Assembly: GCA_028823475.1 (NCBI GenBank)
Contig: JAPKBI010000004.1
Location: 1-32,313, forward strand
DNA: 32,313 nucleotides
Direction: 5' to 3'
Source: Halioglobus sp.
GTDB taxonomy: Bacteria; Pseudomonadota; Gammaproteobacteria; Pseudomonadales; Halieaceae
Shown: one piece after another, positions 3,779 to 30,638 of the stretch
Layout of the letters: every line of letters begins with the position of its first letter
How positions within the stretch are numbered: position 1 is the first letter of the stretch
Made by a program: the position numbers and the translations under genes
Notes under the pieces: model-generated
The model's input: only the letters and a program-made list of their open reading frames with translations
The model's database searches: none
What the model was told of the DNA's origin: nothing

Positions 3779-3800
3779 AGTCTTTCCCTCAGGGTCACGC

Positions 3801-11700: not shown

Positions 11701-12353
11701 GTGTAAAAACGCGTGCACTGGTGCTGGATTTTGGTGGGGTTATCTCTCGGACATTGTTTGAAACGCATGAAATGACCGAGCAGGCTTTGGGTCTGGCTCC
11801 GGGCAGCCTGACTTGGCAGGGCCCCTTCGATCCTGCCGGTGATCCTCTTTGGGTCGCTATGCAAAATAATGAGCTGACGGAGCGTGAATACTGGCAGCAA
11901 CGAACTCTCGAAGTGAGCGAACTGGCGGGGGAGCGATGGGAAGAGATGTCCCAGTTCGTTATCGCCGCCCGGGGTGCCAATCCCGCGCTAATTATTCGAT
12001 CTGAGGCTCTCGATGCCATGGTTAAAGCGCAGGCTGGTGGCGCCAGATTGGCTATTCTTTCCAATGAGCTGGATTTATTCTACGGCGCGGGGTTTCGTGA
12101 CAAGCTCCCGTTTATGAAACAGTTTGAAGTGATTATTGATGCCACCTACACCAAAATTCTGAAGCCCGACCCGCGCGCCTACCACAGCTGCGCCGATGCG
12201 TTGGGAATGGCGTGTAAGGATTGTGTGTTTGTTGATGATCAGTTGCGAAATATTATTGGCGCCCAGGAAGTTGGGATGCAGACAGTGCATTTTGACGTGC
12301 AAAATCCAGGGCAAAGTTATGAGCAGGCGCTGTCCCTGCTACTGAGTGATTAG
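11697..12353 (+). CDS. HAD family hydrolase
   Basis: 'ALVLDFGGVISR', 'LAILSNELD', 'ILKPDPRAYHSCADALGMACKDCVFVDDQLRNIIGAQEVGMQTVHFD'. Overlaps the IclR stop (ATGA). Confidence 0.9.
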   Translation: MSVKTRALVLDFGGVISRTLFETHEMTEQALGLAPGSLTWQGPFDPAGDPLWVAMQNNELTEREYWQQRTLEVSELAGERWEEMSQFVIAARGANPALIIRSEALDAMVKAQAGGARLAILSNELDLFYGAGFRDKLPFMKQFEVIIDATYTKILKPDPRAYHSCADALGMACKDCVFVDDQLRNIIGAQEVGMQTVHFDVQNPGQSYEQALSLLLSD

Positions 12354-12362
12354 GAGAATAGC

Positions 12363-13694
12363 ATGCAGGATAGAAACTTAAAATATTGGCAGCCCATGAT
12401 TAACCCGGCTGCAACTCACAAGACACCCCCGAAGATTATTTGTGCGGGAGAGGGTGTTGAGGTCACCGATATAGATGGTCACCGGACGCTGGATGCAGTA
12501 GGTGGGTTGTGGAATGTCAATCTGGGCTACTCCTGCCAGCCCATCAAGGATGCGATCACCGAGCAATTACAGACTTTGCCCTATTATTCGTCCTTTCCCG
12601 GTGTCGCGACGGACAAGGCTATAGAGCTTTCCCACGCTCTGACTGATTGGTTTGCTGGGGACGGTATGCAGCGGGCATTCTATACCTCAGGTGGATCTGA
12701 TGCCGTAGAAACGGCACTGCGCTTGGCTCGTCAGTACCACAAAATTCGCGGCGATAAGGATCGCTATAAATTTATCAGCCTAAAAAAGGGCTATCACGGC
12801 ACCCATTTTGGTGGAGCCTCCATTGGTGGGAATGCAAAGAATCGACGCAACTATGAGCCGCTTCTTCCAGGCTGCCACCAGATTGCCTCTCCCTGGCCTT
12901 ACCGCAATCCTTTTAATGAATCCAATCCGGAGATTCTGGCTCAGCTTTGCGCCAACATGCTGGAGGACGAAATCAAGTTTCAGGGGGGCGATACTGTTGC
13001 TGCGTTCATAATGGAGCCGGTACAGGGCTCTGGTGGGGTGATTGTGCCCCACAAAACGTTCATGCCTATGGTGCGTGAGATATGCGATCGCCACGGTGTA
13101 CTTTTGATTGCCGATGAAGTCATTACCGCTTTTGGTCGCACCGGAGCGTGGACGGGCTCCAGGCTATGGAACACTAAGCCTGACATGATGTGTACCGCCA
13201 AAGGTATTAGCAATGGCTATTATCCTTTTGGCGCCACCATGCTGGGTGAGACTGTGGTCGAGGCATTTGAGGGTAATTCCGATAGCCTGGGGGAGATCGG
13301 CCATGGATATACGTATTCGGGCCACCCAGTGGGAGCCGCTGCTGCACTGGCAACCCTTCAGCAACTGGCAGTTACCGACGTTGCGACAAACTCCGCTGTC
13401 CGCGGAGAGGAGCTATCTGCAAGCCTAAAAATACTCATGGCGAAATATGACTGTGTCGGTGACATACGAGGAATTGGACTGATGCAGGTGTTGGAGTTAG
13501 TCTCTGATCGAGGTAGTAAACTACCGCTTGGTAAAAGCCTCATGACGAAAATCTCTGAGACTATTTACCGCGAGGGTGTAATGGTGCGAGTGTCTGGCAA
13601 TAATATCATCTTGTCACCACCACTTATTATTAACGCTGGCCATGTTGAGACTATCGTCAAGGCTATCGATGTCGGCCTCGGTTCGATTCAATAA
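12363..13694 (+). CDS. Class III (PLP-dependent) aminotransferase, aspartate aminotransferase family
   Basis: 'GVEVTDIDGHRTLDAVGGLWNVNLGY', 'AFYTSGGSDAVETALRLARQYH', 'LLIADEVITAFGRTGAW', 'PDMMCTAKGISNGYYPFGATML'. Confidence 0.95.
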   Translation: MQDRNLKYWQPMINPAATHKTPPKIICAGEGVEVTDIDGHRTLDAVGGLWNVNLGYSCQPIKDAITEQLQTLPYYSSFPGVATDKAIELSHALTDWFAGDGMQRAFYTSGGSDAVETALRLARQYHKIRGDKDRYKFISLKKGYHGTHFGGASIGGNAKNRRNYEPLLPGCHQIASPWPYRNPFNESNPEILAQLCANMLEDEIKFQGGDTVAAFIMEPVQGSGGVIVPHKTFMPMVREICDRHGVLLIADEVITAFGRTGAWTGSRLWNTKPDMMCTAKGISNGYYPFGATMLGETVVEAFEGNSDSLGEIGHGYTYSGHPVGAAAALATLQQLAVTDVATNSAVRGEELSASLKILMAKYDCVGDIRGIGLMQVLELVSDRGSKLPLGKSLMTKISETIYREGVMVRVSGNNIILSPPLIINAGHVETIVKAIDVGLGSIQ

Positions 13695-13707
13695 AAGAGG
13701 CTAGCTT

Positions 13708-14946
13708 ATGTTATCTCCCACTATTCTGATTGTCGGTACAGCTGATACCAAAGCAGACGAACTCCTATACCTGAAGAAATGCGTGGAGCGAGTCGGTGGT
13801 ACGGGTCGCATTATGGATGTTGGGGTGCTAGGCACCCCAGCCTTTGAACCGAACTATAGCAAGTTTGATGTGGCGATCGCTGCGGGGACAACGAACGAAG
13901 AGATTATCGCGCTCGGAGACGAGAATCGGGCGATGACCAAGCAAGCCGAAGGTGCCAGTAATTTGGCTCTGACACTTCAGCGCAAAGGCGAAATTAATGG
14001 CATGTTGGCCATAGGTGGTACCCTGGCGACAGATCTATCACTGGACGTTGCCTTGGCATTACCGCTGGGTTTTCCTAAGTGTATTGCTTCGACAGTGGCA
14101 TTTTCGCCGCTGTTACCACCACAACGAATGGCCCCGGATGTCATGATGGTACTGTGGGCTGGCGGTCTGTTTGGTTTAAATACAATCTGTAAATCTGTGT
14201 TGAGTCAGGCAGCCGGGGCCATCGTCGGCGCGTGCATGGCGCGGGAGGTTGAGCAAAAATCGCTACCGATTGTGGGCGTAAGCTCACTGGGAAGCAGTTC
14301 ACTCCGTTATATGCTAAAACTCAAACCTGCCCTAGAGCAGCGGGGATTTGAAGTGGCGGTATTTCATACCACTGGTATGGGAGGGCGAGCGCTGGAAGTA
14401 TTGGCTGCTAGTGGTGAGTTGGCCGCCGTTCTCGATTTCAGTCTGGTTGAGGTGAGTAATCATGAAAACGGTTCGGTAGTGAGTGCCGGCGAGGATCGCA
14501 TGGAAGCGGCCGTTTTAGCAAGGCTACCATTAATTGTTGCCCCTGGAGGCGTGAGCTTGATGGACTTCCAAACCTGGTCGCCGCCCGAGCAGAAGATCAA
14601 TGGCAGAGATATACTCACACACAATCGTCTCATCGCCTGTGTGCAATTGACCGTGGAAGAGAAAGTTCAGGCAGCTCGTACTATAGCGGCGAAGCTGGAT
14701 AAGGCAACCGGACCCTGCGCCTTTATTATACCCCTACATGGGATTGACGAATGGGACAGGGAGGGCGGCCCCTTCAATGATCCTGTTGGCCTTTCGGCCT
14801 TTTACGACACGCTTCGAGAAGGGCTGCACGATAACGTTGAGCTGATCGAAGTAGAAACGCATATCAATGACGATTTGTTTGTTGAAACAGCACTAGAAAT
14901 TTTTGATGACTGGCTTGCACAGGGTCTAATTTCCAGGGAAGTGTAA
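13708..14946 (+). CDS. Tm-1-like ATP-binding domain-containing protein (UPF0261)
   Basis: 'ILIVGTADTKADELLYLKKCVERVGG', 'INGMLAIGGTLATDLSLDVALALPLGFPKCIASTVAF', 'VAVFHTTGMGGRALEVLAASGELAAVLDFSLVEVSN'. Confidence 0.88.
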   Translation: MLSPTILIVGTADTKADELLYLKKCVERVGGTGRIMDVGVLGTPAFEPNYSKFDVAIAAGTTNEEIIALGDENRAMTKQAEGASNLALTLQRKGEINGMLAIGGTLATDLSLDVALALPLGFPKCIASTVAFSPLLPPQRMAPDVMMVLWAGGLFGLNTICKSVLSQAAGAIVGACMAREVEQKSLPIVGVSSLGSSSLRYMLKLKPALEQRGFEVAVFHTTGMGGRALEVLAASGELAAVLDFSLVEVSNHENGSVVSAGEDRMEAAVLARLPLIVAPGGVSLMDFQTWSPPEQKINGRDILTHNRLIACVQLTVEEKVQAARTIAAKLDKATGPCAFIIPLHGIDEWDREGGPFNDPVGLSAFYDTLREGLHDNVELIEVETHINDDLFVETALEIFDDWLAQGLISREV

Positions 14947-17215: not shown

Positions 17216-17514
17216 AGGATGATATCCATCCAAGTCTATTATGACCGGCCCTCAGGTCTAACGATTGCAACATGAAACAAACTTGAGGATCTCACTTATA
17301 AAGGCTGACTCACTGTGTCAGGGATAGGATCCACTTCACAATCCAAATTCTAGTAACCCTGGCCTCGGCAAGCGCGATTACTTATCTCGAGATTGTGCAA
17401 ATAATAACAGAGTAGAGCGTTCTCAGCCCAAACCGCTGAAAAGGTTCATTAGTAGATTAGGGCACTAAAACCTAACTCGGAAGGTATGATATGGGCATCT
17501 AAGGTGGGTCGTCA

Positions 17515-18312
17515 CTAGTATCCGGCTTGTTCCAAATCTGATGTTATCTTTTTGAACTGGTTGGCCAGTTTCCGGGTTGCATTACTCAGTAGTGCGACAT
17601 CTACCCCCACACCGACAAAGCACGCTCCTTTTTCCACGTAGTGTCGCACGAGTGATTGATCTACCGCCAAAATGCCGACCGCTTTACCTGCGGCGAGAAT
17701 GGTCTTAAATCCGCTTTCAATGGCGGAAATCACATCGGGGTGCTCTGGATTTCCGATATGACCCATTGACGCAGATAAGTCAGAGGGCCCGAAAAATATC
17801 CCATCGATGCCGTCCACCGCCGCGATCTCATCAAGATTTTGCAGCGCAATTGTTGTTTCTACCTGTACGAGTAGGCAGATTTCTTCGTTGGCTCTGTGTA
17901 AATAATTGTCTACGCGATTCCAGCGCGCGGCCCGGGACATCGATGTCCCCAGCCCCCGAATTCCATCGGGGGGGTATAGCACATCCTGGACAAGTTGTTT
18001 AGCCTGTTCAGCGGTATCTACCATGGGTACCAGCAGTGTTTGCGCCCCAATATCCAGTAGTTGTTTAAGTAGAGCGGTACGCCCCTCGGCGGGGCGAACA
18101 ATGGCGGGCACGTTATATGGGGCGATGGCCTGAAGATGATTATGTACATCACGCACACTGTAAGGTGCGTGCTCAGCATCGACTAATACCCAGTCAAAGC
18201 CCGCGCTGGCACCGATTTCGGCACAAATGGTGTCGGGCAGGCCCATCCACAATCCGTACTGCGGCTGGTCGCTCTTTAAAGCCTGCTTAAAGTAATTTAT
18301 GGGTAGGTCCAT
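17515..18312 (-). CDS. hpaI: 4-hydroxy-2-oxoheptanedioate aldolase (HpaI)
   Basis: 'QYGLWMGLPDTICAEIGASAGFDWVLVDAEHAPYSVRDV', 'VRPAEGRTALLKQLLDIGAQTLLVPMVDTAEQA', 'QVETTIALQNLDEIAAVDGIDGIFFGPSDLSASMGH'; HpcH/HpaI family. Confidence 0.95.
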   Translation of the reverse strand: MDLPINYFKQALKSDQPQYGLWMGLPDTICAEIGASAGFDWVLVDAEHAPYSVRDVHNHLQAIAPYNVPAIVRPAEGRTALLKQLLDIGAQTLLVPMVDTAEQAKQLVQDVLYPPDGIRGLGTSMSRAARWNRVDNYLHRANEEICLLVQVETTIALQNLDEIAAVDGIDGIFFGPSDLSASMGHIGNPEHPDVISAIESGFKTILAAGKAVGILAVDQSLVRHYVEKGACFVGVGVDVALLSNATRKLANQFKKITSDLEQAGY

Positions 18313-18365
18313 GCTAGTTTACCTTGCTGAAAAGTGTTGCCGCTAAGGAAGCTTAGTTGCGCGAA

Positions 18366-19169
18366 CTAAACGAAGTGACAGGAAATTCCGCCCAACGGAC
18401 CATAGTCGGCGTGAACAGTGTCGCCGGCCTTGACGATGATGGGCCTGATAAATGAGCCGGACAATATAACCTGACCGGGCTCCAACGCGATGCCGTGTGG
18501 TGCGAATCGTTTGGCCACCCAGCATATCCCATTGGCAGGGTGGTTCAGAACACCGGCAGCCAAACCGGTCTCTTCCAATACTCCGTTGACATAGCAGAGC
18601 GCACCACACCATCGTAAGTCCATTTCTTGCGGCCTGATCGGGCGGCCACCCATAACGATGCCAGCGTTGGCGGCATTGTCGGCGATGGTATCGAAAATCT
18701 TACGTGTGTATCCGGTTTCCGGGTGAACCCGGTGGCTGCGCGCTGAGATCAGTTCCAGCGCCGGAACTACATAGTCAGTGGCGTTGAGCACATCGAACAT
18801 AGTGACATGTTCACCCTCAAGGCGGTCTTTCAGGACGAAGGCAAGTTCTACTTCTATTCGTGGATCACTGAAGCGGGCCGTCTCGATATCAGCGCCATCC
18901 TCGAACACCATGTCATCCAGGAGCACACCGTAATCTGGTTGATCGATCTTCATGGTATTTTGCATGGCGCGGGATGTGAGTCCAATCTTATAGCCGATCA
19001 CCCGCCGGCCATCGGATACTTTTCGGTCAACCCATTGTTTTTGAATAGCATAGGCCTCATCCATCGTCATGTTTGGATGGGTGAGCGTAATCGGGTCGAT
19101 CTGCCGCCTGTCGATTTCTGCCTGGTGGAGATCGCTCGCGGCTTTGTTAATATCAGTATCACTTAACAT
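18366..19169 (-). CDS. hpaH: 2-oxo-hept-4-ene-1,7-dioate hydratase (HpaH)
   Basis: Close to my recollection of E. coli HpaH across its length: '[37 protein letters not shown]', '[16 protein letters not shown]', '[17 protein letters not shown]', '[22 protein letters not shown]', '[22 protein letters not shown]'. Confidence 0.96.
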
Positions 19170-19202
19170 AGTGTATGGCCTTTTTATGAATCCCTGCCCT
19201 GG

Positions 19203-19583
19203 CTATGGGAGATAGTCGCGGAGGTTGTTTTTATTGTACTTCAGTATGGTGGGTAATTCCGACATTTCGAAGGAGATCGCCAGCCCCTGTCGATCAGATA
19301 GCGGTTGCAAAACGGCACTCATGGCCTTGAAGATACTGCCAGCAGCCTCTTTTTTCGCCTCTTCTGATCGGCCTACACCGATTTTTATTTGTAGATGTAA
19401 GAAGCCGAAATTAGGGTTTCCGTCGGCGATTCGAAAGTGTTCGCATCGGTGGGCGCGGCAGCGAATTCCTGCCAGCGGAAACAACTCGGTCTCCACAGCC
19501 GCTTCGCTGAGTGTCTTAAGAAGCTCAGGAATATCAATAGACTCATCCAGATTAGCAGAGTATTCCAATATAAAGTGGGGCAT
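19203..19583 (-). CDS. hpaF: 5-carboxymethyl-2-hydroxymuconate delta-isomerase (HpaF)
   Basis: 'MPHFILEYSANLDESIDIPELLKTLSEAAVETELFPLAGIRCRAHRCEHFRIADGNPNFGFLHLQIKIGVGRSEEAKKEA'; CHMI family with Pro immediately after Met. Confidence 0.95.
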   Translation of the reverse strand: MPHFILEYSANLDESIDIPELLKTLSEAAVETELFPLAGIRCRAHRCEHFRIADGNPNFGFLHLQIKIGVGRSEEAKKEAAGSIFKAMSAVLQPLSDRQGLAISFEMSELPTILKYNKNNLRDYLP

Positions 19584-19595
19584 CAGTGGTCCTCC

Positions 19596-20447
19596 TTAGC
19601 TTACTGGAAAGATAGCATTTATCTGGCCGGTGCCCGAACTACCGAAATAGGGTGTGACAACCTCTACTTTGCCCTGATATTTATCCCACCCGAGGCAGCC
19701 CAGTAGCATGGCTGTGTCATGCATGAATCCCTCGCCATGGCATTTATCCGCATACTCTGGCAACAGGGCTGTAAAGGTGTCCCATTCCCCGTTCTCCCAC
19801 ATCTTCACGACGCTCTCGTCCATTGCCTGTAAAAAGGGCGACCAGACCTTAAATGAGTACTGGTCTGTGACGCCGTTCTGAGCGAAGCGATGAGACAGTG
19901 AGCCAGAGGCGAATACGGCAACGTTCCCGTCGTAGTTTTCCTCGACGGCCTTGCGTACCGACTGCCCCAGCACTGCACTGCATTCCAAATCGTGCACTGT
20001 GCATAGAGCAGAGATAGAGATAATTTTGAAAGCGCGATCCTCGTTCATGTAGCGCATGGGGACGAGAGTTCCATATTCCAACGGAAGGGTAGTGTCGGAG
20101 TGCGCTCTGGTGTGTACGCCCGCTTTGGTGGCTGCCTGAGCGATACTCTCGCCTAGCTCTGGATTGCCGTCGTATTCGTAGTCCATATTTTTAATGAAAT
20201 GGGGCAGTTCGTTGCTGGTGTAACAGCCCTTGAAGTGCGCCGCATTATTAATGTGGTAGCCAGAATTCACCAGCCAGTGGGTGTCGAAGACCACGATTGT
20301 ATCAACATTTAGCTCGCGGCAGCGCCGGGAAATTTCCTTGTGCCCTTTAATTGCAGCTTCACGACAACCCTTATTCGGGCCGTCTAACTCGGAAAGGTAC
20401 ATAGATGGTACGTGGGTTATTTTTGCTGCTAAAGCGATGTTGCCCAT
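19596..20447 (-). CDS. hpaD: 3,4-dihydroxyphenylacetate (homoprotocatechuate) 2,3-dioxygenase, LigB-type (HpaD)
   Basis: 'IALAAKITHVPSMYLSELDGPNKGCREAAIKGHKEISRRCRELNVDTIVVFDTHWLVNSGYHINNAAHFKGCYTSNELPHFI', 'GTLVPMRYMNEDRAFKIISISALCTVHD', 'LLPEYADKCHGEGFMHDTAMLLGCLGWDKY'. Confidence 0.97.
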   Translation of the reverse strand: MGNIALAAKITHVPSMYLSELDGPNKGCREAAIKGHKEISRRCRELNVDTIVVFDTHWLVNSGYHINNAAHFKGCYTSNELPHFIKNMDYEYDGNPELGESIAQAATKAGVHTRAHSDTTLPLEYGTLVPMRYMNEDRAFKIISISALCTVHDLECSAVLGQSVRKAVEENYDGNVAVFASGSLSHRFAQNGVTDQYSFKVWSPFLQAMDESVVKMWENGEWDTFTALLPEYADKCHGEGFMHDTAMLLGCLGWDKYQGKVEVVTPYFGSSGTGQINAIFPVS

Positions 20448-20483
20448 AATGAATCTCCTTAATGTGAAATTGTGACTGTATGG

Positions 20484-22001
20484 CTAGCGCCCTAAAAGCG
20501 GGATCTTGTGAGTGCCGTGAGCAATACAGACATTCTTTGTTTCCATGTAGAAGTCGAAACTGAAATCGCCGCCATCGCGGCCGATTCCGGACATTTTGAC
20601 GCCACCAAACGGCGAGGGGAGGTTGCGATTATTCTCTGAGTTTATCCACAGCATGCCAGATTCTACTTGTCTGGCCATACGCATTGCGCGCCCTGTGTTC
20701 TCTGTCCAGATATAGCCGGCCAAGCCGTAGATTGTATCGTTCGCAATATCAATGGCTTGCTCTTCGGTGTCGAAGGATATAACGGTAAGAACCGGGCCAA
20801 AAATCTCTTCCTGGGCAATGCGCATGTTGTTTGTAGCCTGGGTGAAAAGCGTAGGGGTTATATAGTTTCCGGCTCCTAAATCTTCTCTGCGCTCACCTCC
20901 CACAGCAATGGTCGCCCCCTCTTCTCGAGCAATATCCATATAGCTCATCACCTTTTTATAGTGGCCCGTATGGACAAGTGGGCCCACCTCGGTGTCCGGA
21001 TCGAGCGGATGGCCAACTCGCAGGTTCTTTACCCGTTGCTGTAGGGCATCGATGAATTTTTGTTTAATACCACTTTGTATCAATAAGCGACTCGACGAAG
21101 TACAGCGCTGGCCATTGAGGCTGTAGATCATAAATACGACGGCATCCAGGGCACGATCGAAGTCGGCGTCGTCAAACACGATCACCGGGTTCTTGCCGCC
21201 CAGCTCAAAGTGTACGCGTTTTAATGTCTCCGCTCCCTGGCGCATAATATGGCTGCCAGTTGCTCCTTCACCCACCAACCCCACAGCTTTTATTGCAGGG
21301 TGTTCAGTGAGCCGTTTTCCGGCTTCTTCTCCGAATCCATTGATGGTGTTCCAAACCCCGTCGGGTAACCCTGCCTCTTTGGTAATATTAGCCAATAGCA
21401 TTGCGCTCAAAGGCGTCAGCTCAGCAGGCTTGTGCACAACGGTGCAGCCAGCAGCCAGTGCTGGAGCAATTTTCCAGGTGGCGAGCATGAAAGGCGTGTT
21501 CCAGGGGGTAATAATTCCCACGGGGCCAATTGGGCTGCGAATGGTGTAGTTAGTGTGTTCTTTCTGATGGAGGGACAAACCATTTTGCGCTTCAGGAGCT
21601 TTGTCAGCAAAGAAGCGAAAGTTTGCTGCACCGCGGATTGCGGCTTGTTTCATGAAGCGAATAGGTTGGCCGCAGTCCATGGACTCCACCAGTGCAATTT
21701 CGTCGGCATGCTGAACAATTTTATCGGCAAATTGATTCAATATTTTCTTCCGTTCGGCACCGGGGAGGTCACGCCAATCGGCGAATGCGGCTTCTGCGGC
21801 TTCACAAGCTAGGTCCACATCTGCGGCTGTCCCTGTTACCACGGCACCCAAAGAGCTGTTATCGACTGGAGTTGTGTTGTCATAGGTGACAGCTCCCGCG
21901 GGCAACACTACTCGGCCATTAATGAAATGCCCCGTGGTCTTGGCTTTGAACGGTTGCAGATACTGATTAGCCCTGCTTATGTTTTCTGAAAATTCGGACA
22001 T
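20484..22001 (-). CDS. hpaE: 5-carboxymethyl-2-hydroxymuconate semialdehyde dehydrogenase (HpaE)
   Basis: ALDH motifs 'IGPVGIITPWNTPFMLATWKIAPALAAGCTVVHKPAE', 'VHFELGGKNPVIVFDDADFDRALDAVVFMIYSLNGQRCTSSSRLLIQ'; first gene of the hpaEDFHI string. Start refined to MSEFSENIS with GGAGG upstream. Confidence 0.93.
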   Translation of the reverse strand: MSEFSENISRANQYLQPFKAKTTGHFINGRVVLPAGAVTYDNTTPVDNSSLGAVVTGTAADVDLACEAAEAAFADWRDLPGAERKKILNQFADKIVQHADEIALVESMDCGQPIRFMKQAAIRGAANFRFFADKAPEAQNGLSLHQKEHTNYTIRSPIGPVGIITPWNTPFMLATWKIAPALAAGCTVVHKPAELTPLSAMLLANITKEAGLPDGVWNTINGFGEEAGKRLTEHPAIKAVGLVGEGATGSHIMRQGAETLKRVHFELGGKNPVIVFDDADFDRALDAVVFMIYSLNGQRCTSSSRLLIQSGIKQKFIDALQQRVKNLRVGHPLDPDTEVGPLVHTGHYKKVMSYMDIAREEGATIAVGGERREDLGAGNYITPTLFTQATNNMRIAQEEIFGPVLTVISFDTEEQAIDIANDTIYGLAGYIWTENTGRAMRMARQVESGMLWINSENNRNLPSPFGGVKMSGIGRDGGDFSFDFYMETKNVCIAHGTHKIPLLGR

Positions 22002-22032
22002 GAGCGCCTCCAAGGATTGAATAAAAAGAATA

Positions 22033-22042
22033 TAACATGTTA
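22033..22042. promoter_or_regulatory. TAACATGTTA palindrome (context ATAACATGTTAAC), putative HpaR operator
   Basis: 10-bp perfect core about 30 bp upstream of the hpaE start; same motif as the 15052 site. Confidence 0.55.
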
Positions 22043-22257
22043 ACTAAAATATAAGCAAGACAATATCACGGCCAAAAAGATGCTGCCTTACGAGCTTAGG
22101 AGCACCCAAGGTGTAACGCTTACTTCGATGTAAATGATTTTAATGCTGACTACACGGGAGCTCGATACACTGCCTGGTTGTACGCTGCGGGAGTGTGTCG
22201 CCTAAGGGAGCATTACACTGAAGACATCTCCGCAGGGTATTTAACACGCACGGAGGG

Positions 22258-23358
22258 TTACTCATATTCGAGGTGCGCGCTGGCAGTTTCGGGATCGCAG
22301 TTTGCGGCGGGAAATTCACGTTTATCGGTGAGGTTGTAGACACCGTGTATGGAAAAAGGTCTCTCCAGATATACCGGGTCCTCTACCAGTGCTTCTACAA
22401 ACATTCTGGTGCCGCCCAGTTTCCTGCCGTTGGTCAGCGTGTAGCGCTCCGTCAGCCTCTTTTGGGTGCTTGAATCTAGTCCATAATCTATACCCCAGCG
22501 AGTGGCCGGAAACCCGGTAGTTTCAACAATCAGGCTGCCAAACTCGTCAAATCGACCGCTGGAAAAACCTACCGGGTTGGATTTGTAGTCAGCCGGCTTT
22601 TTACGGCCATCAAGCCATATAACACGACGCTCGGTTTCCTTGCCTTCTGTTTGAACTACGATGCGATCCCCATGGCGAGTCCAGTTGCGGGCATACACAT
22701 CGAAGATGATTTGCGGTGCTCCGTATTCCTGGCAGGTAAATGCGGGGTCATCTTTAGAATCATAGGCCGCGTAATTTTCTTGTCCTTTCTGTGACAGTGG
22801 CCATGGGTGGGTTAAGCCCATGCCCAAGACGAGGATTTCATCCAGAGTCAGGTAGTATTCCCAAGTACCGCTGAAATCCTTGGAAGTGGTTACACCGTAT
22901 TCGCCGAACACATTTGTCTTTTCTTTGCTGGTAGCATCGCTTTCTGCGGCCACCACAGGCGCTGGGGTTTCTTCACCCCCAACGGGCGGAAGAGAGGTAC
23001 CGTTGGAGAGAATTATCCGATTGTACAAACCCGATTTTTTCCCCGGGGGGCGCTGGGCATTTTTACGGTTGGGGAATACCTTAAACGTGACTTCGTCGCC
23101 GATTTTAACGGTATCTTCCATCCACCCGTTTTTGACCAGGTCGACGATAGCAGAGCCATCGAAGGCCCAGATTTCATTGACGCCTTGTTCATTAATTACT
23201 TCAAGAACGTACCTGACGTGTGGATTCCTCCATCGCATGGCCTTCACTGTGCCTTTGACGCTGATCTCGGTATCAAGGTCGTAGGCGGTGCGGGAGTGGT
23301 GAGCCTGGATGGTTGCCAGCGGGAGTAGCAAAAGTAGTAGTAGGAAGTGCTTGAGCAT
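22258..23358 (-). CDS. Exported DUF6152-like protein with C-terminal lipocalin-like domain (paralog 1)
   Basis: Signal peptide 'MLKHFLLLLLLLPLATIQA', then 'HHSRTAYDLDTEISVKGTVKAMRWRNPHVRYVLEV' (DUF6152-like) and 'RRVIWLDGRKKPADYKSNPVGFSSGRFDEFGSLIVETTGF'; ends SAHLEYE. Confidence 0.8.
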   Translation of the reverse strand: MLKHFLLLLLLLPLATIQAHHSRTAYDLDTEISVKGTVKAMRWRNPHVRYVLEVINEQGVNEIWAFDGSAIVDLVKNGWMEDTVKIGDEVTFKVFPNRKNAQRPPGKKSGLYNRIILSNGTSLPPVGGEETPAPVVAAESDATSKEKTNVFGEYGVTTSKDFSGTWEYYLTLDEILVLGMGLTHPWPLSQKGQENYAAYDSKDDPAFTCQEYGAPQIIFDVYARNWTRHGDRIVVQTEGKETERRVIWLDGRKKPADYKSNPVGFSSGRFDEFGSLIVETTGFPATRWGIDYGLDSSTQKRLTERYTLTNGRKLGGTRMFVEALVEDPVYLERPFSIHGVYNLTDKREFPAANCDPETASAHLEYE

Positions 23359-23457
23359 AATAAACCTCGCGTTAAATTTTTTATTGCAGGCCTGTGACGG
23401 GAGCTTGAGCGTGGGGCAAACCCAGTGGGCCGTTTACTTCAGTACGAGTAGATCCGT

Positions 23458-24555
23458 CTATTCGTACTCCAGGTGAGCACTAGATGCCTCTGGATCACAA
23501 CTAAACGGCACGTATTGGTGCGCAGGCGCGAGATCGTAGGCGCCCCAGGTCTTGACTGGCGTACTCAGGTATACCGAGTCTTCTACCACCATTTCGAAAA
23601 CCATACGGGTATGCCCGGTGAGTGGGCTGCCGTTAGTCAGGTTATAACGGACAACGACACGTTTCTGAGCGCTAGAATCAAGCCCGATAATGTTGCCCCA
23701 TGGAGTGGAGGCATAGCCCGTAGTTTCTACTATTAGGGTACCATTTTCGTCGATGGTGCCTGTGGAGAAACCGATATCGGAGGGCACAAAGTCAGCGGGC
23801 TTTTTCCTGCCGTCCAGCCAGATAGTGCGACTTTGGTTTTCGGCTGACATCTCGGTTTCCACTTCAATCCTGTTTTCAAACCGTACCCAGTTGCGCGCCC
23901 AGACCCAGAAGACAAGCCGTGGATGGCCAAAATTAATACACTTATAGAACGGATCGTCCTTAAGAACAAAGTTGTTGACTTGATCTTGCCCTTTGGCAGA
24001 AAGGGGCCAGTGTCGCGGTGGATCAAAGCCGCCAGTTTTACCCTCTTCATTGTTGACGAAAAAATGCCAATTGCCACTAAAATCATGGGTGCCGGGAGTA
24101 TTCATGATTTTGTCACTGTACTCACTCTCTCGCTCGGCTTCCTCATCACCCTCGACCTTAGGTGCATCTTCTGCCGGATTCGCATCCAGTACATTGCCAT
24201 CGGCCTGAATGATGCGCAGCAGTAAGCCCGATTGTTTCTCAGGTGTCCGCGAGACGTTCTTGTTGTTCGGATTGCCGATCATGGTTACCGCGTCGCCAAC
24301 CTGCACTGTATCTTTTCTCCAGCCGACTTTAACATAGGCAGAAACTGCAAAGCCCTCGAATTGCCAATTTTCCTTAACACCCTGCGCATTGACGGACTCA
24401 ATTTTGTAGTAAGGGTGTGGATTTCTCCATAGCACTTTGGTCACAGTACCTTTGACAGATATTTCCTGATCTGAGTTATAAGGGGCTCTGGAATGGTGGG
24501 CTAGCGCCATACTCGAGAACAGAAAAATGCATAGTATGACTATTAATCGTTGCAT
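23458..24555 (-). CDS. Exported DUF6152-like protein with C-terminal lipocalin-like domain (paralog 2)
   Basis: Signal peptide then 'HHSRAPYNSDQEISVKGTVTKVLWRNPHPYYKIESV', 'RTIWLDGRKKPADFVPSDIGFSTGTIDENGTLIVETTGY'; ends CDPEASSAHLEYE like paralog 1 (tandem duplication). Confidence 0.8.
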   Translation of the reverse strand: MQRLIVILCIFLFSSMALAHHSRAPYNSDQEISVKGTVTKVLWRNPHPYYKIESVNAQGVKENWQFEGFAVSAYVKVGWRKDTVQVGDAVTMIGNPNNKNVSRTPEKQSGLLLRIIQADGNVLDANPAEDAPKVEGDEEAERESEYSDKIMNTPGTHDFSGNWHFFVNNEEGKTGGFDPPRHWPLSAKGQDQVNNFVLKDDPFYKCINFGHPRLVFWVWARNWVRFENRIEVETEMSAENQSRTIWLDGRKKPADFVPSDIGFSTGTIDENGTLIVETTGYASTPWGNIIGLDSSAQKRVVVRYNLTNGSPLTGHTRMVFEMVVEDSVYLSTPVKTWGAYDLAPAHQYVPFSCDPEASSAHLEYE

Positions 24556-24795
24556 GATAGTTCCTACTGGTTATTGTCTATATCGCCAAGGGTGTTGCAG
24601 AGGCGAACGACACCAGTGTATGCGTCATTGTCGACAAAGAAAACATCCCCGATCAATTATTTTCGCATCATAACTTGGGACGAAGGGGTTCAGGCAGCCA
24701 TATATTAAATCGTTCCGTGATGCGAGACATTGCCGGCCAGTAGTTTTAACGTATTGAATTTAATCTAAACGGATTGGGCCGTAGGGCTATCGAGT

Positions 24796-25584
24796 TTACG
24801 TGGCCGAGTGTTCAGTGAGGGCTATCATTCTGTCCATGGAATCGACTATTTCACCGGCAGATTTTCGCAGTAACGCCAGATACTCCTTGGCCACCGTATC
24901 GTTAAAACAACTGGAGAAAACGGAGAGGCCTATAACGCCGATGACCTGATGGTCACTTTTAATAGGGATGGCCATATGAGTGGATTCACCACGTTTTCCA
25001 ACCCGTAAGCCGTAGCCTCGATCTTTCACCTCGGCTATGTAGCGCTTTATTTTAGAATCGCTCTCAAGAATGCAGTCCTCCTGAAATTCCTCGTCACGAA
25101 GCGCTTGAAGAATGATCTGTAACTGGGTTTCTTCACAGAAACCTAAATACGCTTGTCCCATAGCGGTTTTAAATAAGTTAAATCGCTTATTAACAGTGGA
25201 ACCCTGCATTACAAACTCTGAGTAAGGGCGGGTAGAATATTGAACAACAATGGTGTTGTAATCGAATATACCGATAGCGACGGGCCACTTAACCTCTTGG
25301 GTTATTCTTCTTGCCACCGGTGTGCCGACCTGTAGTAACCATGCCTCTTTACCGTAGCCTGAAGACAGTGACAGCACCTGATCTGTGAGCATATAGACAC
25401 TGCGATCAATATCTTTCCCCACATACCCGCAACTTATCAGTGTAGCGAGTATGCGGTGTACGGTGGGCTTGGGCAGTCCGGTCACCCGGTGGAGGTCGCT
25501 AATTGTAGACAGTCTATGCTGGTTCATCGCACTCATGATTGACAGCGCTCTGGCAATTGGTTCAATCACATCGGGTGAGGGCAT
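24796..25584 (-). CDS. IclR family transcriptional regulator
   Basis: 'IEPIARALSIMSAMNQHRLSTISDLHRVTGLPKPTVHRILATLISCGYVGKD', 'MGQAYLGFC', 'HMAIPIKSDHQVIGVIGLSVFSS'. Confidence 0.92.
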   Translation of the reverse strand: MPSPDVIEPIARALSIMSAMNQHRLSTISDLHRVTGLPKPTVHRILATLISCGYVGKDIDRSVYMLTDQVLSLSSGYGKEAWLLQVGTPVARRITQEVKWPVAIGIFDYNTIVVQYSTRPYSEFVMQGSTVNKRFNLFKTAMGQAYLGFCEETQLQIILQALRDEEFQEDCILESDSKIKRYIAEVKDRGYGLRVGKRGESTHMAIPIKSDHQVIGVIGLSVFSSCFNDTVAKEYLALLRKSAGEIVDSMDRMIALTEHSAT

Positions 25585-25633
25585 GGGGAAGGGGTTCTCG
25601 GTAGATAGTTAGTTAGGAAGGCCCTGTGCGTAA

Positions 25634-25650
25634 GGTTGAATAGTTCAACC
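25634..25650. promoter_or_regulatory. GGTTGAA-TAG-TTCAACC palindrome, putative IclR operator
   Basis: Perfect 7-bp inverted repeat about 50 bp upstream of the IclR start, in the gap divergent from the DUF6152-FAH-MhpB cluster. Confidence 0.55.
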
Positions 25651-25739
25651 AGTATAAAAAAAAATTTCTCAATATGGTACGCTTTTGTGATGTTTTTTAC
25701 TCGAACAGCCTGTTTTTTTGCTCAAATTTAGAAGCGATA

Positions 25740-25750
25740 ACTGGTTGAAC
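25740..25750. promoter_or_regulatory. Distal half-site ACTGGTTGAAC, perfect inverted copy of GTTCAACCAGT at 25643-25653
   Basis: 11-bp exact inverted repeat about 86 bp apart in the same intergenic region. Confidence 0.5.
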
Positions 25751-25881
25751 GAGTGAAGTAGCCCGAGAAATTGCGGGTTTATTATTCCGCAAGACGAAAC
25801 CCGAGGCTCGAATCATATATCCTTTATTAAACGGTGTGATTAAATGCCTGAGTAGTAGATGAACTTAGCCGGAGAGTATTT

Positions 25882-27114
25882 ATGAAAACCACAACCCATG
25901 TGCTCACTTTTATGTGGTTGCTTGCAATTACTCTTTCAACGCATGCACACCATTCGGCAGTCGTATTCGATTTCGATAAAAGCATCAGTGTTACAGGTAC
26001 CGTTACTCGGCTGTTATGGCGTAGCCCTCATGTCGCCATTAACTTGGAGCTGGTCAATGAAGCGGGAGAAACTGAGATTTGGAAGTTGGAATCTTATGCT
26101 ATTAATGCACTGGTTGAGCGGGGCTGGAAAAAAACCGACGTCAAAAAAAGTGAGATTATTACCGCACAGATCAATCCGCTGAAAAATGGCAAGCCTGGAG
26201 GCGTATTGCAGTGGGTAACTTTAGCAGACGGACGAGTACTGCCGATTCACAAGGATTCACCGAACGGGAATAAGGCGATTAAGGTCAATGTCAGCACCCA
26301 GAGTACGCTATACGTCAGCACGGAGTCAGCCGAAGACGCAGCGGTGCGCCGTAAGGCTGTCCTGGAGCGGGAGAAAAAATGGCGACCAGCCACGCTGCCG
26401 CTGATGAATAATGTCGGTGGCCCGGGCGCGCTGGATCCAGAGGCACTCATCAAGAAGCGCTCGGCAGCACCTTTTGACATGACAGGTGTTTGGGAGTTCC
26501 GCGCCGAAGATGAGCGGGCAGACAAGTACGGTGTTAATCCCTGGGATTTCTATCCTATCCCTAAGCTTACGCCAAAAGCACAGGCCACTTTGGACGAATA
26601 CCGCGCGGTGATAGCGCAGGGTAAGCGTGGTATGGATCCACATGCACGCTGTTATCCGCCGGGGCAGCCAGCACTGATGACTCGATTCGGGGCCTTTATG
26701 GCAATTCAGTTGCCCACCGCGGTCTATATTGTCCACCGTTTTAATAACAGCTTCAGGACTATTTTCCTCGATGGCCGCGGTCATGTTAATGAAGATATTC
26801 GTCAGGAAACCTATAATGGTGATGCCACCGGTCGGTGGGATGGCGATGCTCTCAATGTGGACTTAGTGGGCTTTGGCTCGCCAGAGCACTGGATTATGGA
26901 TGGCATTCAGGTTAGCGAGCAATTTCGGATGACGGAGCATATCAGAATGTTGAATGAGGGCAGCACGTTAATGATTGAGATGACATTTGTTGACTCGGAG
27001 AACTGGGTGGGTGAATGGAAGCACACTAAATTCTATGACCGTCTGTTGAACATGGATATCGAAGAGGCGACCTGTATTGCCGAACTTGATAATTCGGCAT
27101 TACCAGGAATGTGA
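25882..27114 (+). CDS. Exported DUF6152-like protein with C-terminal lipocalin-like domain (paralog 3)
   Basis: Signal peptide 'MKTTTHVLTFMWLLAITLSTHA', then 'HHSAVVFDFDKSISVTGTVTRLLWRSPHVAINLELV'; C-terminal 'FRTIFLDGRGHVNEDIRQETYNGDATGRWDGDALNVDLVGF'. Confidence 0.8.
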   Translation: MKTTTHVLTFMWLLAITLSTHAHHSAVVFDFDKSISVTGTVTRLLWRSPHVAINLELVNEAGETEIWKLESYAINALVERGWKKTDVKKSEIITAQINPLKNGKPGGVLQWVTLADGRVLPIHKDSPNGNKAIKVNVSTQSTLYVSTESAEDAAVRRKAVLEREKKWRPATLPLMNNVGGPGALDPEALIKKRSAAPFDMTGVWEFRAEDERADKYGVNPWDFYPIPKLTPKAQATLDEYRAVIAQGKRGMDPHARCYPPGQPALMTRFGAFMAIQLPTAVYIVHRFNNSFRTIFLDGRGHVNEDIRQETYNGDATGRWDGDALNVDLVGFGSPEHWIMDGIQVSEQFRMTEHIRMLNEGSTLMIEMTFVDSENWVGEWKHTKFYDRLLNMDIEEATCIAELDNSALPGM

Positions 27115-27346
27115 TTACCTGGTCCGTCAATCGATCGACGCTTTTGTTGTCATTGAATCCTTTATTTGTTGTGAGAAGTAACAGTTGAAAGATAGACTCG
27201 GTGGTGCCAAGTCCAACGCACAAAAAAGAATACTCTAGTCTTTTATGTTTCGTAAAGTGGAATGGGAATGTGTGTTTGTTGTGAGTTCAGAGCATTTGGA
27301 GGAAGATTTAGAAATCGTTAATTAAATAACTTATTAGGGCTCTATT

Positions 27347-28351
27347 GTGAAACTGGCAAGTATTTCATATCAAGGAATTGATCGAATTGTTGCGGCAATA
27401 GACGAACAACGTGTGGTGGACATCGTCGCAGCATTTGCCGCAGCATTCGATGATCGTGTCAGTGCTCCGGGTGATATGCTCGAGCTGCTACAAGGGGGAG
27501 AAGAAGTCTTGGCTCAGGTCTCGGAGGCGGTCGACGCAGTGCGAAAATCCCCAGATACCGTGGAGATGATTTTCCAGTCCGATGTATACTGGCACGCTCC
27601 GATTCGCAATCCAGGCAAGGTTTGCGGTATCGCGATGAATAACTCCGCCAGTAACAGTCGCAAGATCAGAGCACCAGAGCACCCCGCCTTTTTTCTGAAG
27701 CCAGCCTCGTGCCTGATTGGTCATAAAGAACCTATCGTCATCAGAAAATACTATGGCAGCGTACACCCCGAACCAGAGCTTGCGGTAATCATAGGTAAAG
27801 AGATGCGTGACGTGCCTGCAGTTGATGCGATAAATTATGTTGCTGGTTATACTATCATGAACGACTTGACTGGGAATGACATGCGTGCGGAAGACCTATT
27901 TCAGTATTGGGCTATCTACGCCAAAGAAGATAATCCCAATGAGACGAATCGAGTCGAGCAGCACCTCTCGTATGCGGGTCGTTATAAGGGTTGTGATACG
28001 TTTGGCATATTGGGCCCCTGGTTAGTTACTCGGGAGGAGATTTCAAACCCGGATGATCTCGCCGTTGAGTGTAGTGTAGGGGACGAAATGATCGCCGAGG
28101 ATAGTACGCGATATTACAATTATAAAGTGGCTGAAATACTCAGTTTTATTAATCAGTTTCACACTCTGTACCCTGGCGACGTGGTGTCATGCGGTACGGC
28201 ATTCAAACCTGTGAAAAACCAGAAATCTATTCACTGTGCTAATTTCCAACAGGTTCCTGGACCAGTGTCAGTATCCATTGAAGGTCTCGGTATTCAGGAG
28301 AATCCTGTTATAGTTGAGGACAGAGTGATAGGTGAATGGCGGTTGAATTAG
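27347..28351 (+). CDS. Fumarylacetoacetate hydrolase family protein (long form, possible C-C hydrolase/isomerase)
   Basis: 'GIAMNNSASNSRKIRAPEHPAFFLKPASCLIGHKEPIVIRKYYGSVHPEPELAVIIGKEMRDV', 'YTIMNDLTGNDMRAED', 'LYPGDVVSCGTAFKPV'; GTG start. Confidence 0.87.
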   Translation: MKLASISYQGIDRIVAAIDEQRVVDIVAAFAAAFDDRVSAPGDMLELLQGGEEVLAQVSEAVDAVRKSPDTVEMIFQSDVYWHAPIRNPGKVCGIAMNNSASNSRKIRAPEHPAFFLKPASCLIGHKEPIVIRKYYGSVHPEPELAVIIGKEMRDVPAVDAINYVAGYTIMNDLTGNDMRAEDLFQYWAIYAKEDNPNETNRVEQHLSYAGRYKGCDTFGILGPWLVTREEISNPDDLAVECSVGDEMIAEDSTRYYNYKVAEILSFINQFHTLYPGDVVSCGTAFKPVKNQKSIHCANFQQVPGPVSVSIEGLGIQENPVIVEDRVIGEWRLN

Positions 28352-28809
28352 AGGCCCTTGCCCGCCTTGAAGCTCGGCTGGCAATTGAAGATTTAAACAC
28401 GCATTTTTGTCATTACCTTGACCACAACAAGGTCGATCTGCTGGTGGGTCTTTTTACCGCCGAGGCATACTACGCACACGGCAGTCGGGTGTCTGTTGGG
28501 GTTGAGAAGATTCGCAGTTTGTTTGATGCTCGTTTGAGTGCGGGTGTACGAACGGCGCGGCATATGTATAGTGGCCTTAAAGTTGAGCTAGTAGCGGCGG
28601 ATCGAGCACGAGGCACGAGTGTCTGTATGACTTTCGCGCAGAATGCTGCTCCGCCGATCACCTCGGCAGTACCGTATCTGGTAGCGGATTTTTTTGACGA
28701 ATATGTGCGCGAGGACGATGGTTGCTGGCGCATAGCAAAACGGCGTATAGAACGCATTTTTATTGACCCTTCAAACAAAGGCCCAGTTGGACAAACGAAC
28801 AAGGGCTAG
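28336..28809 (+). CDS. SnoaL-like/NTF2-fold protein
   Basis: 'LARLEARLAIEDLNTHFCHYLDHNKVDLLVGLFTAEAYYAHGSRVSVGVEKIRSLFDARLSAGVRTARHMYSGLKVEL ... YVREDDGCWRIAKRRIERIF'; overlaps the FAH 3' end. Confidence 0.85.
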   Translation: MAVELEALARLEARLAIEDLNTHFCHYLDHNKVDLLVGLFTAEAYYAHGSRVSVGVEKIRSLFDARLSAGVRTARHMYSGLKVELVAADRARGTSVCMTFAQNAAPPITSAVPYLVADFFDEYVREDDGCWRIAKRRIERIFIDPSNKGPVGQTNKG

Positions 28810-28844
28810 GCCTGCGATGGAGTACTTTTTGGCAGGAGATTGCA

Positions 28845-29804
28845 ATGAACACAGTTCTGGTGTGTGCTTCGCACAGTCCACTTTTACATTGTTATAGTAA
28901 GGAACCCGAGAGCTGGCAGGCGCTCCAGGAAGCCTACATCAAAACTGCTACAGTGATTAGGACATTTGATCCGGAACTTGTGATCGCATTTGGCTCGGAT
29001 CACTTTAATGGCTTCTTTCTGAAGATGATGCCGGCTTTCTGTGTGGGGGCTAAAGCTGAAGCGGCTGGCGACATTGGGGGCTATCCTGGTCCTCTGAATG
29101 TACCTCAGGATATTGCATTCAGTGTTGTAGAGTTTCTACGGGACAATGATATTGATCCCGCGATTTCGTATCAGATGACGATCGATCACGCTTTTTCCCA
29201 GACGATTGTTGATATGTTGGGTGGCCTTGATAAACGGCCTGTCATACCCGTATTCATAAACTGTATCACGACACCATTCGTTCCTTTTAAGCGAAGTAGA
29301 TTAATGGGAGAAGCAATTGGTCGATTTACCCAAACTCTTAACAAGCGTGTTTTGTTATTGGGGTCTGGCGGTATGTCACATCATCCCACTCGATACTATC
29401 CCGCTTATGGTGAAGGGGGAGAAAAGGTTCAGGCCTGGCAGCTCTCCGGTGGCGATGATCCATCTTCATTGACGCGGCCAGAATGGTTGGAGCGACTGGA
29501 GGTAATGCATCACGAAGGGGCCGATATGATAGCGCGAGGGGAGCGTACAGCAAAAGATATGCGCTTGAATGCAGAGTCTGATCGAGCTTTCCTTGATACT
29601 CTGGTATCTGGTGGACTTGAGGCTTTCGACACCTGGGACCAGTATAAACTGGTAGAAGAAGCGGGGATTGGTTCTATGGAATTACATACTTGGATTGCTG
29701 CCGCTGCTGCGCATAAAGCTGCTGGCGGATCAAATCCGGTGGTAGATATTTACACCATGGCCCCAGAGATCGGTATCGCGGCTGGTATTGTTCATGCCCT
29801 TTGA
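28845..29804 (+). CDS. 2,3-dihydroxyphenylpropionate 1,2-dioxygenase-like LigB-superfamily enzyme (MhpB-like)
   Basis: 'VLVCASHSPLLHCY', 'FDPELVIAFGSDHFNGFFLKMMPAFCVGAKAEAAGDIGGYPGPLNVP', 'VIPVFINCITTPFVPFKRSRLMGEAIGRFTQTLNKRVLLLGSGGMSHHPT', matching my recollection of MhpB blocks. Confidence 0.9.
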   Translation: MNTVLVCASHSPLLHCYSKEPESWQALQEAYIKTATVIRTFDPELVIAFGSDHFNGFFLKMMPAFCVGAKAEAAGDIGGYPGPLNVPQDIAFSVVEFLRDNDIDPAISYQMTIDHAFSQTIVDMLGGLDKRPVIPVFINCITTPFVPFKRSRLMGEAIGRFTQTLNKRVLLLGSGGMSHHPTRYYPAYGEGGEKVQAWQLSGGDDPSSLTRPEWLERLEVMHHEGADMIARGERTAKDMRLNAESDRAFLDTLVSGGLEAFDTWDQYKLVEEAGIGSMELHTWIAAAAAHKAAGGSNPVVDIYTMAPEIGIAAGIVHAL

Positions 29805-29822
29805 TGGCTGAGGTAGAATTCT

Positions 29823-30638
29823 TTGATTGACAATTCACTATTGATCGCCGTCGCGCCGAACGGAGCGCGTCGTAATTATGCGGATCACCCCCACTTACCG
29901 ATATCTCCCAAAGAACTGGCCTACACTGCAGCCAGATGCCTCGAGGCTGGAGCGGCCATGCTTCACTTACATGTGCGGGACGAGTGGGGTGGCCACACCT
30001 TGGATGCCAGACGCTACCGTGCAGCCTTAAAAGAAATTGAGAGCGCCGTTGGCGAAGATATGCTGATTCAGGTGACATCGGAAGCTGCCGGAGTCTATCG
30101 ACCGCACGAGCAAGTGGCTGCCGTTCGAGAATTAGAGCCGCGTTGCGTGTCAATCGGGTTGCGAGAGATCATCCCCGATGATACCGCGATAGATTTTGGA
30201 GCCAGTTTTCTCGCGGAGCTACGAGAGCGAGCTTGTCTGGTGCAGTATATTCTCTATTCGGTAGAGGATATTCAGCGGTATCAGCGCTTCTGTGTCGAAG
30301 GGGTAATCCCGACGTCGGGAAATCTCGTTCTATTTGTACTGGGACGTTATGACAATCAACAATATCAGGAGAGTGCTCTACAGGAGTATCGAGCCGCTCT
30401 AACTCAGCCGGATAACTGGATGGTGTGCGCCTTCGGCAGCCAGGAACAGCGAGTTATGTCCCAGGCCATTCAGCTCAGTGGGCATGTCCGTGTCGGCTTT
30501 GAGAATAATATTTGGCTACAAGATGGCTCGCTTGCTGAAGATAATTCAGTATTGGTCTCTCTCTCTGCGCAGTCAGCTCGGGAGCAGGGGCGCAATTTGG
30601 CTACGATTAAAGACGCGGTCGCGATGTTTGGAACCTGA
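29823..30638 (+). CDS. BKACE family protein (DUF849, beta-keto acid cleavage enzyme)
   Basis: 'LLIAVAPNGARRNYADHPHLPISPKELAYTAARCLEAGAAMLHLHVRDEWGGHTLDARRYRAAL', 'LIQVTSEAAGVYRPHEQVAAVRELEPRCVSIGLREI', 'GHVRVGFENNIWLQDG'; TTG start. Confidence 0.9.
   Translation: MIDNSLLIAVAPNGARRNYADHPHLPISPKELAYTAARCLEAGAAMLHLHVRDEWGGHTLDARRYRAALKEIESAVGEDMLIQVTSEAAGVYRPHEQVAAVRELEPRCVSIGLREIIPDDTAIDFGASFLAELRERACLVQYILYSVEDIQRYQRFCVEGVIPTSGNLVLFVLGRYDNQQYQESALQEYRAALTQPDNWMVCAFGSQEQRVMSQAIQLSGHVRVGFENNIWLQDGSLAEDNSVLVSLSAQSAREQGRNLATIKDAVAMFGT

Follow-up and report, generated by a model that had tools for sequence, protein, structure and literature searches.

A conserved gene unit for an FAH enzyme, a SnoaL protein, an MhpB-like dioxygenase and a BKACE in a Halioglobus genome, and a tentative ring-cleavage route to coenzyme A esters

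We analyzed a 32,313-nt stretch of DNA (the window) from Halioglobus sp. (assembly GCA_028823475.1, contig JAPKBI010000004.1), which is contig C487 of a 572-contig metagenome-assembled genome (MAG) with a completeness of 74.6%. It carries a tightly spaced unit of four plus-strand genes (27347-30638) encoding a long fumarylacetoacetate hydrolase (FAH) superfamily enzyme, a SnoaL protein, an MhpB-like class III extradiol dioxygenase, and a beta-keto acid cleavage enzyme (BKACE). The FAH and SnoaL genes overlap by 16 nt, and the next two intergenic gaps measure 35 and 18 nt. Upstream, 232 nt separate the FAH gene from a gene for a DUF6152 protein, and a gene for an IclR-family regulator is divergent from this set. 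An earlier note on this DNA, made from the sequence alone, had named these five genes and the regulator, and searches with Pfam and NCBIfam profiles bore out every identity (Table 1). Its description of five closely packed genes holds for the four genes of the unit and fails for DUF6152.

Table 1. Position of the four-gene unit, its regulator, and neighboring genes in the window
Feature	Position	Strand	Profile match or motif
IclR-family regulator, MhpR-like, divergent	24796-25584	-	Pfam HTH_IclR and IclR_C; NF007342
Candidate IclR operator TTCCGCAAGACGAAA	25785-25799	+	imperfect palindrome TTYCG-N5-CGRAA
DUF6152 protein, N-terminal signal-like segment	25882-27114	+	PF19649, 82.5 bits
Long FAH-superfamily enzyme, 334 aa	27347-28351	+	PF01557 FAA_hydrolase, 141 bits
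SnoaL_4 / LinA-fold protein	28336-28809	+	PF13577, 74.5 bits
MhpB-like class III extradiol dioxygenase	28845-29804	+	LigB Pfam, 113 bits; NF009910, 274 bits
BKACE-fold enzyme, distinct subfamily	29823-30638	+	PF05853, 209 bits
HpaH, neighboring	18366-19169	-	TIGR02312, 440 bits (cut-off 351)
HpaD, 3,4-dihydroxyphenylacetate 2,3-dioxygenase, neighboring	19596-20447	-	TIGR02298, 473 bits (cut-off 316)
HpaE, neighboring	20484-22013	-	TIGR02299, 812 bits (cut-off 638)

Using an alignment of the FAH enzyme, we scanned 84,980 genomes and obtained 39 loci at 50% to 90% identity, which made 41 together with the window and a second copy in the same MAG (contig C521). Architectures were assigned by profile search; 35 of the 41 loci were readable in their flanks, and six were cut or unclear. 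The gene order recurs outside this contig. The full FAH-SnoaL-LigB-BKACE order was found in 11 loci, four of them gammaproteobacterial (the window, L015, L016, and L032) and seven of a sulfate-reducer type (L023, L024, L025, L027, L029, L033, and L050), from genomes labeled Desulfopila, Desulfofustis, Desulfobulbaceae, or Deltaproteobacteria. The remaining architectures were FAH-SnoaL-LigB (7 loci), FAH-LigB (10), FAH-SnoaL-BKACE (2), FAH-SnoaL alone (1), and FAH-SnoaL with a LigA/LigB-type dioxygenase in place of the MhpB-like one (4 loci: L018, L048, L049, and L051; the LigA and LigB subunits of L051 were confirmed by Pfam, and the L048 assignment is a weak LigB match). Among the 35 readable loci, FAH has a class III extradiol dioxygenase as neighbor in 32, and SnoaL and BKACE occur in 25 and 13, respectively. 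We therefore rejected BKACE, with which the earlier note had the set end, as an obligatory last step. The FAH family itself is rare, being found in this MAG alone among 369 sampled gammaproteobacterial genomes, and several copies of the operon are adjoined by dedicated regulators and by TRAP or MFS transporters. The FAH-SnoaL-MhpB-like-BKACE unit is very probably a real ring-cleavage cassette. The four-gene combination was not found in the open-access literature, a search whose reach excludes most subscription papers.

The surroundings of some copies have features of their own. In L018, L049, and L051, LigA and LigB subunits come after FAH-SnoaL and replace the MhpB-like enzyme; L051, from Aminobacter sp. 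J41, also has a 280-aa frame without Pfam or NCBIfam match between the genes, and TRAP genes afterwards. Eight Woeseiaceae-type loci (L028, L031, L034-L038, and L040) share additional neighbors, namely HupE/UreJ-like, cytochrome b561, DUF5916/CBM9-like, Nramp-like, and thiamine-diphosphate enzyme genes. The second copy in this MAG reads IclR-DUF6152-FAH-SnoaL-LigB, without BKACE, and is part of a 12.3-kb stretch present twice (window 17502-29802 and C521 6779-19101). The two stretches are 100% identical at 19001-24000 and 79% to 94% identical on both sides of it, a pattern that could come from gene conversion between duplicates or from a chimeric assembly of two strains in this MAG. The C521 version and locus L013 share 95% identity.

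The dioxygenase scored 274 bits against the 3-carboxyethylcatechol 2,3-dioxygenase profile NF009910, below its cut-off of 291, and matched the MhpB structure 8k04 at 199 bits. By these scores it is MhpB-like, short of an MhpB equivalog assignment. In a 29-sequence alignment, H10, H53, D114, H115, H179, and E279 are conserved in every sequence readable at the position, and at H10, H53, E279, H115, and H179 the letters are identical to 8k04. In MhpB and LigAB, the first three of these correspond to the 2-His-1-carboxylate iron site and the last two to the acid/base histidine pair. As far as alignment can tell (our active-site statements for all enzymes of the unit are read from sequence alignments), the active site is intact, in keeping with the meta cleavage that the earlier note had assumed. 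An RYYP insertion after SHHP is specific to the MhpB-like dioxygenases of the unit.

In the FAH enzyme, the metal ligands E142, E144, and D173 are invariant across a 33-sequence alignment, as is K118, and an insert of about 25 aa precedes the RYKGxDTFG motif. Its AlphaFold2 model (mean pLDDT confidence 84, with a low-confidence lid) matched YisK, HpcE, and fumaryl- and maleylpyruvate hydrolases in Foldseek. These nearest folds are enzymes that cleave C-C bonds of alpha-keto acids, which supports a C-C cleavage scheme, and we propose that the FAH enzyme would perform this step. Against the HpaG profile it scored 127 bits, far under the cut-off of 276. The SnoaL protein (model pLDDT 89) most resembled scytalone-dehydratase-like proteins, Rv3472, LinA, and bile-acid 7-alpha dehydratase. 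All 23 SnoaL sequences compared have D29 and H76, which align with D25 and H73, the catalytic dyad of LinA. We regard Asp29-His76 as a putative dyad and propose that the protein acts as an isomerase- or tautomerase-like helper.

The BKACE gene is the only one in the MAG. Its product scored 209 bits with PF05853 (cut-off 24.8) and 84 bits with NF053538 (cut-off 430), and it belongs to a subfamily with members in 13 of the 369 gammaproteobacterial genomes, this MAG included. The zinc ligands H46, H48, and E230 and the residue R226 are invariant where readable, and the subfamily has an invariant Thr/Ser-Ser/Thr-Glu motif. Relative to canonical BKACE enzymes it carries the substitutions E14R, E143I, and D231N. 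Among the correctly read members outside the operon, the Ile and Asn are shared, and the Arg is shared except in two with Tyr. Acetoacetate-CoA ligase genes, above cut-off, directly adjoin two subfamily members (L068 and L075), and this MAG also encodes such a ligase. The shared Ile and Asn and the ligase neighbors argue for a working acetoacetate-forming variant, and the beta-keto acid fate given in the earlier note fits this context. From Arg14 we infer a preference for an acidic beta-keto acid. Most of those read among the subfamily members L067-L077 directly follow a class III aminotransferase gene, some with TRAP-transporter genes (assigned partly by appearance), an arrangement that may belong to a beta-amino acid pathway.

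The best NCBIfam match of the divergent IclR protein was PRK09834/NF007342 (190 bits, cut-off 251), which we take to be the MhpR-type regulator. An IclR gene holds the same position in C521, L013, and L016. The site at 25785-25799 falls within an invariant block of four intergenic regions, three of them closely related, and with at most one mismatch it occurs only twice in the whole MAG, both times between IclR and DUF6152 (C487 and C521). In this lineage the unit is probably under the regulator's control, with this site as a candidate operator. A scan for promoters and terminators gave counts no different from the range of shuffles. DUF6152, which the earlier note had counted as a pathway member, is absent from the seven sulfate-reducer-type loci and was rejected as a pathway enzyme for that reason; by its distribution it is a lineage-specific companion outside the conserved core. 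On either side of the IclR gene are DUF6152 paralogues, three in all (22258-24555 and 25882-27114), and DUF6152 lies near FAH in several other loci. The term itself was not found in the open-access literature.

From the computed gene order, conserved residues, structural families, and neighboring genes, we infer every reaction, substrate, and cleavage position of the following scheme. The substrate would be a trihydroxylated aromatic compound that probably carries an acidic side chain (R), namely a 3-R-5-hydroxycatechol (a 2,3,5-triol). The MhpB-like Fe(II) dioxygenase would cleave it between a hydroxyl-bearing carbon and the R-bearing carbon, in the manner of MhpB, giving R-CO-CH2-CO-CH2-CO-COOH, a 2,4,6-trioxo acid in enol forms. 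The SnoaL protein may then move protons to give a suitable tautomer. The metal-dependent FAH enzyme would hold the 1,2-dicarbonyl end and split the beta-diketone into pyruvate and the beta-keto acid R-CO-CH2-COOH. Finally, the BKACE-type zinc enzyme would exchange this acid with acetyl-CoA to yield R-CO-SCoA and acetoacetate, the latter recovered by acetoacetate-CoA ligase. The plain-catechol meta pathway gives a simple acid and 2-hydroxypentadienoate, never a beta-keto acid. We propose a triol because, on chemical reasoning, only a C5-hydroxylated ring would give a beta-keto acid usable by BKACE. Taken as a whole the scheme is tentative, and we put its chance of being correct at somewhat less than even.

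Trioxo acids are already part of the orcinol/resorcinol meta pathway, the 2,4,6-trioxoheptanoate route, which likewise runs from a triol through extradiol cleavage to hydrolysis. We know of no BKACE in that pathway, and its genes were not found in the open-access literature we searched. The first two steps have a precedent in the literature: hcdABC, from the 7-hydroxycoumarin / 3-(2,4-dihydroxyphenyl)propionate pathway of Pseudomonas mandelii 7HK4, in which an extradiol dioxygenase (HcdB) and then an FAH-family enzyme (HcdC) act on 3-(2,3,5-trihydroxyphenyl)propionate, the type of triol proposed here; HcdC does not decolorize ordinary meta-cleavage products (PMC6222606). The gene set looks like an unstudied variant of an established phenol-degradation strategy, and the word undescribed, which the earlier note used, is too strong for its first two steps. 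The differences from hcdABC are substantial: HcdB belongs to the type I extradiol superfamily, whereas the present dioxygenase has the class III LigB/MhpB fold; neither SnoaL nor BKACE is reported there; the flavin monooxygenase hydroxylase HcdA is linked to it, whereas the present operon has no hydroxylase; and HcdC, compared here by its published description, is 31 kDa, compared with 334 aa and an altered lid here.

Several observations weigh against the scheme. HcdC is drawn as yielding acetylpyruvate and succinate, which implies a different cleavage position (PMC6222606). In the FAH family, the lid His-Glu dyad (H-x-x-E; H30-E33), thought to activate water in FAHD1 and acylpyruvases (PMC8398924), is lost and replaced by NNSASNxRK (compared with 1wzo, 8gsr, and 4pfz). 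The BKACE catalytic Glu is Ile in all 11 operon copies covering the site, and D231 is likewise Asn; by alignment, Kce E143 corresponds to E171 of BKACE15, where E171L abolished activity (PMC11961710). The FAH-type hydrolysis and BKACE named in the earlier note are borne out as family memberships, and both enzymes lack the canonical catalytic residue. We do not accept that the BKACE is dead for want of its Glu, as the whole subfamily shares the change, keeps the invariant Thr/Ser-Glu motif, and has two members beside acetoacetate-CoA ligase. Moreover, BKACE is absent from 22 of the 35 readable loci, including the second copy in this MAG, and two loci carry FAH-SnoaL-BKACE without a dioxygenase. 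No aromatic hydroxylase was recognized within the operon of the gammaproteobacterial loci; PF01494-family proteins are present elsewhere in the operon genomes. An O2-dependent enzyme in relatives of sulfate reducers is also puzzling. As for upstream hydroxylases, two candidates were rejected: HpaB, since PF03241 matched nothing in this MAG, and a linked flavin monooxygenase, since PF01494 matches are scattered and uninformative.

The hpa genes of the window, on which the earlier note was silent, include HpaF-, HpaI-, and HpaG-like genes besides those in Table 1, and they suggest another explanation, in which the MhpB-like and FAH enzymes form a branch of the hpa pathway, handling a related catechol (e.g. 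a hydroxylated phenylacetate) and passing intermediates to HpaE/F/H/I. The hpa/hpc homoprotocatechuate pathway, like the operon, combines a class III dioxygenase with FAH-fold enzymes. The unit lies beside an hpa set in the window, C521, L013, and L032, and in L010 and L030 it stands in line with HpaE-F-H-I, with HpaD missing. However, no hpa genes occur in the flanks of the sulfate-reducer-type loci, L016, or most FAH-LigB loci, so the unit is not tied to hpa; the window already holds HpaD and a separate HpaG-like FAH, and the operon dioxygenase is MhpB-like, not HpaD. We consider such a branch unlikely, appealing as it is for the lineages with linked hpa genes. The earlier note also passed over a further LigB-type gene at 2939-3904, which has low scores against every known subfamily (at best 141 bits, for a cut-off of 290); its L010 relative stands in line with the operon. 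At 11697-14946, after a second IclR gene, genes for a HAD-like protein, a class III aminotransferase, and a UPF0261 protein are consecutive.

An ordinary mhp-type route, as in MhpABCDEF of Escherichia coli, would send the product of the dioxygenase to an alpha/beta-hydrolase, hydratase, aldehyde dehydrogenase, and aldolase, with FAH as hydratase or accessory. The MhpB-like dioxygenase and MhpR-like regulator resemble that system, but the operon lacks MhpC/D/E/F and has FAH, SnoaL, and BKACE instead. Contig C60 of this MAG does carry these four enzymes consecutively (the aldolase scored 546 bits against a cut-off of 286, and the other three were assigned by appearance). The statement that no MhpC-type hydrolase is present is therefore right for the operon and not for the genome. 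A mhp-type set encoded elsewhere and co-regulated, which the earlier note had given as the case against its own reading, is matched as to a similar gene set; as to co-regulation, the candidate operator is not on C60. In addition, 8 of 12 operon-related genomes, some of them incomplete MAGs, have no aldolase above the cut-off, the related set in the L016 genome adjoins what appear to be its own type I dioxygenase and a Rieske oxygenase, and plain-catechol meta cleavage would leave BKACE without a beta-keto acid. We find this route improbable. Comparably little credence goes to a clearance module, in which the enzymes would destroy over-oxidized or mis-hydroxylated phenols from other pathways with no role in growth. 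Such a role would be in keeping with the diverse surroundings of the unit (hpa clusters, transhydroxylase islands, and TRAP transporters), the patchy BKACE, and the rarity of the FAH family, but the dedicated regulators and the TRAP/MFS transporters beside several copies suggest uptake and growth.

All seven sulfate-reducer-type operon genomes encode a pyrogallol-hydroxytransferase-like molybdenum (Mo) enzyme (365 bits); the copies in the six non-query genomes share 86% to 91% identity with that of the query. Its gene and the operon are divergently oriented in L027, L029, and L033, with a GntR gene between them, and in the L023 and L024 genomes the two share a contig at distances of about 14 and 35 kb, respectively. 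Three genomes (G521, G522, and G531) have three transhydroxylase-like large subunits per contig within about 60 kb. Transhydroxylase-like enzymes near the operon point to a polyhydroxybenzene context. The islands around the operon in these three genomes (contigs C47, C14, and C10; L088-L098) also hold Cyclase-family proteins, SDR and thiolase/DUF35-like genes, and TRAP transporters, and may be polyphenol-degradation islands in relatives of sulfate reducers. The anaerobic phloroglucinol pathway (PGR, DPGC, TfD, and TAL; PMC10470551) has a BKACE-family last enzyme and thus resembles these operons with their nearby Cyclase-family and transhydroxylase-like enzymes; in contrast, TAL is close to Kce, and the operon BKACE is of another subfamily and adjoins a dioxygenase. 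That the LigB-like protein of the sulfate-reducer type works without O2 (e.g. as a hydrolase on a reduced ring) within phloroglucinol-type degradation is very improbable, even with transhydroxylase-like, Cyclase-family (PF04199), and SDR proteins in the same islands and with dihydrophloroglucinol cyclohydrolase described as a "cyclase" family enzyme (PMC10470551), because these copies keep all iron ligands and acid/base residues, as the aerobic ones do. A hybrid route at oxic-anoxic borders is conceivable but rather unlikely: O2-independent Mo transhydroxylases would prepare the ring, O2 would be spent solely on the MhpB-like cleavage, and the altered FAH with SnoaL and the altered BKACE would yield pyruvate, acyl-CoA, and acetoacetate, with the same cassette serving aerobic marine gammaproteobacteria behind other upstream enzymes.

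The link to transhydroxylases raises the question of how relatives of sulfate reducers employ an O2-dependent ring-cleavage enzyme. If the proposed triol scheme is true, the FAH and BKACE enzymes of this unit would work without their textbook catalytic residues, and the unit would supply a gene set, and a full path as far as CoA esters, for degrading triol-type aromatics such as plant and algal polyphenols, coumarins, and resorcinols, for which genes are hardly known.

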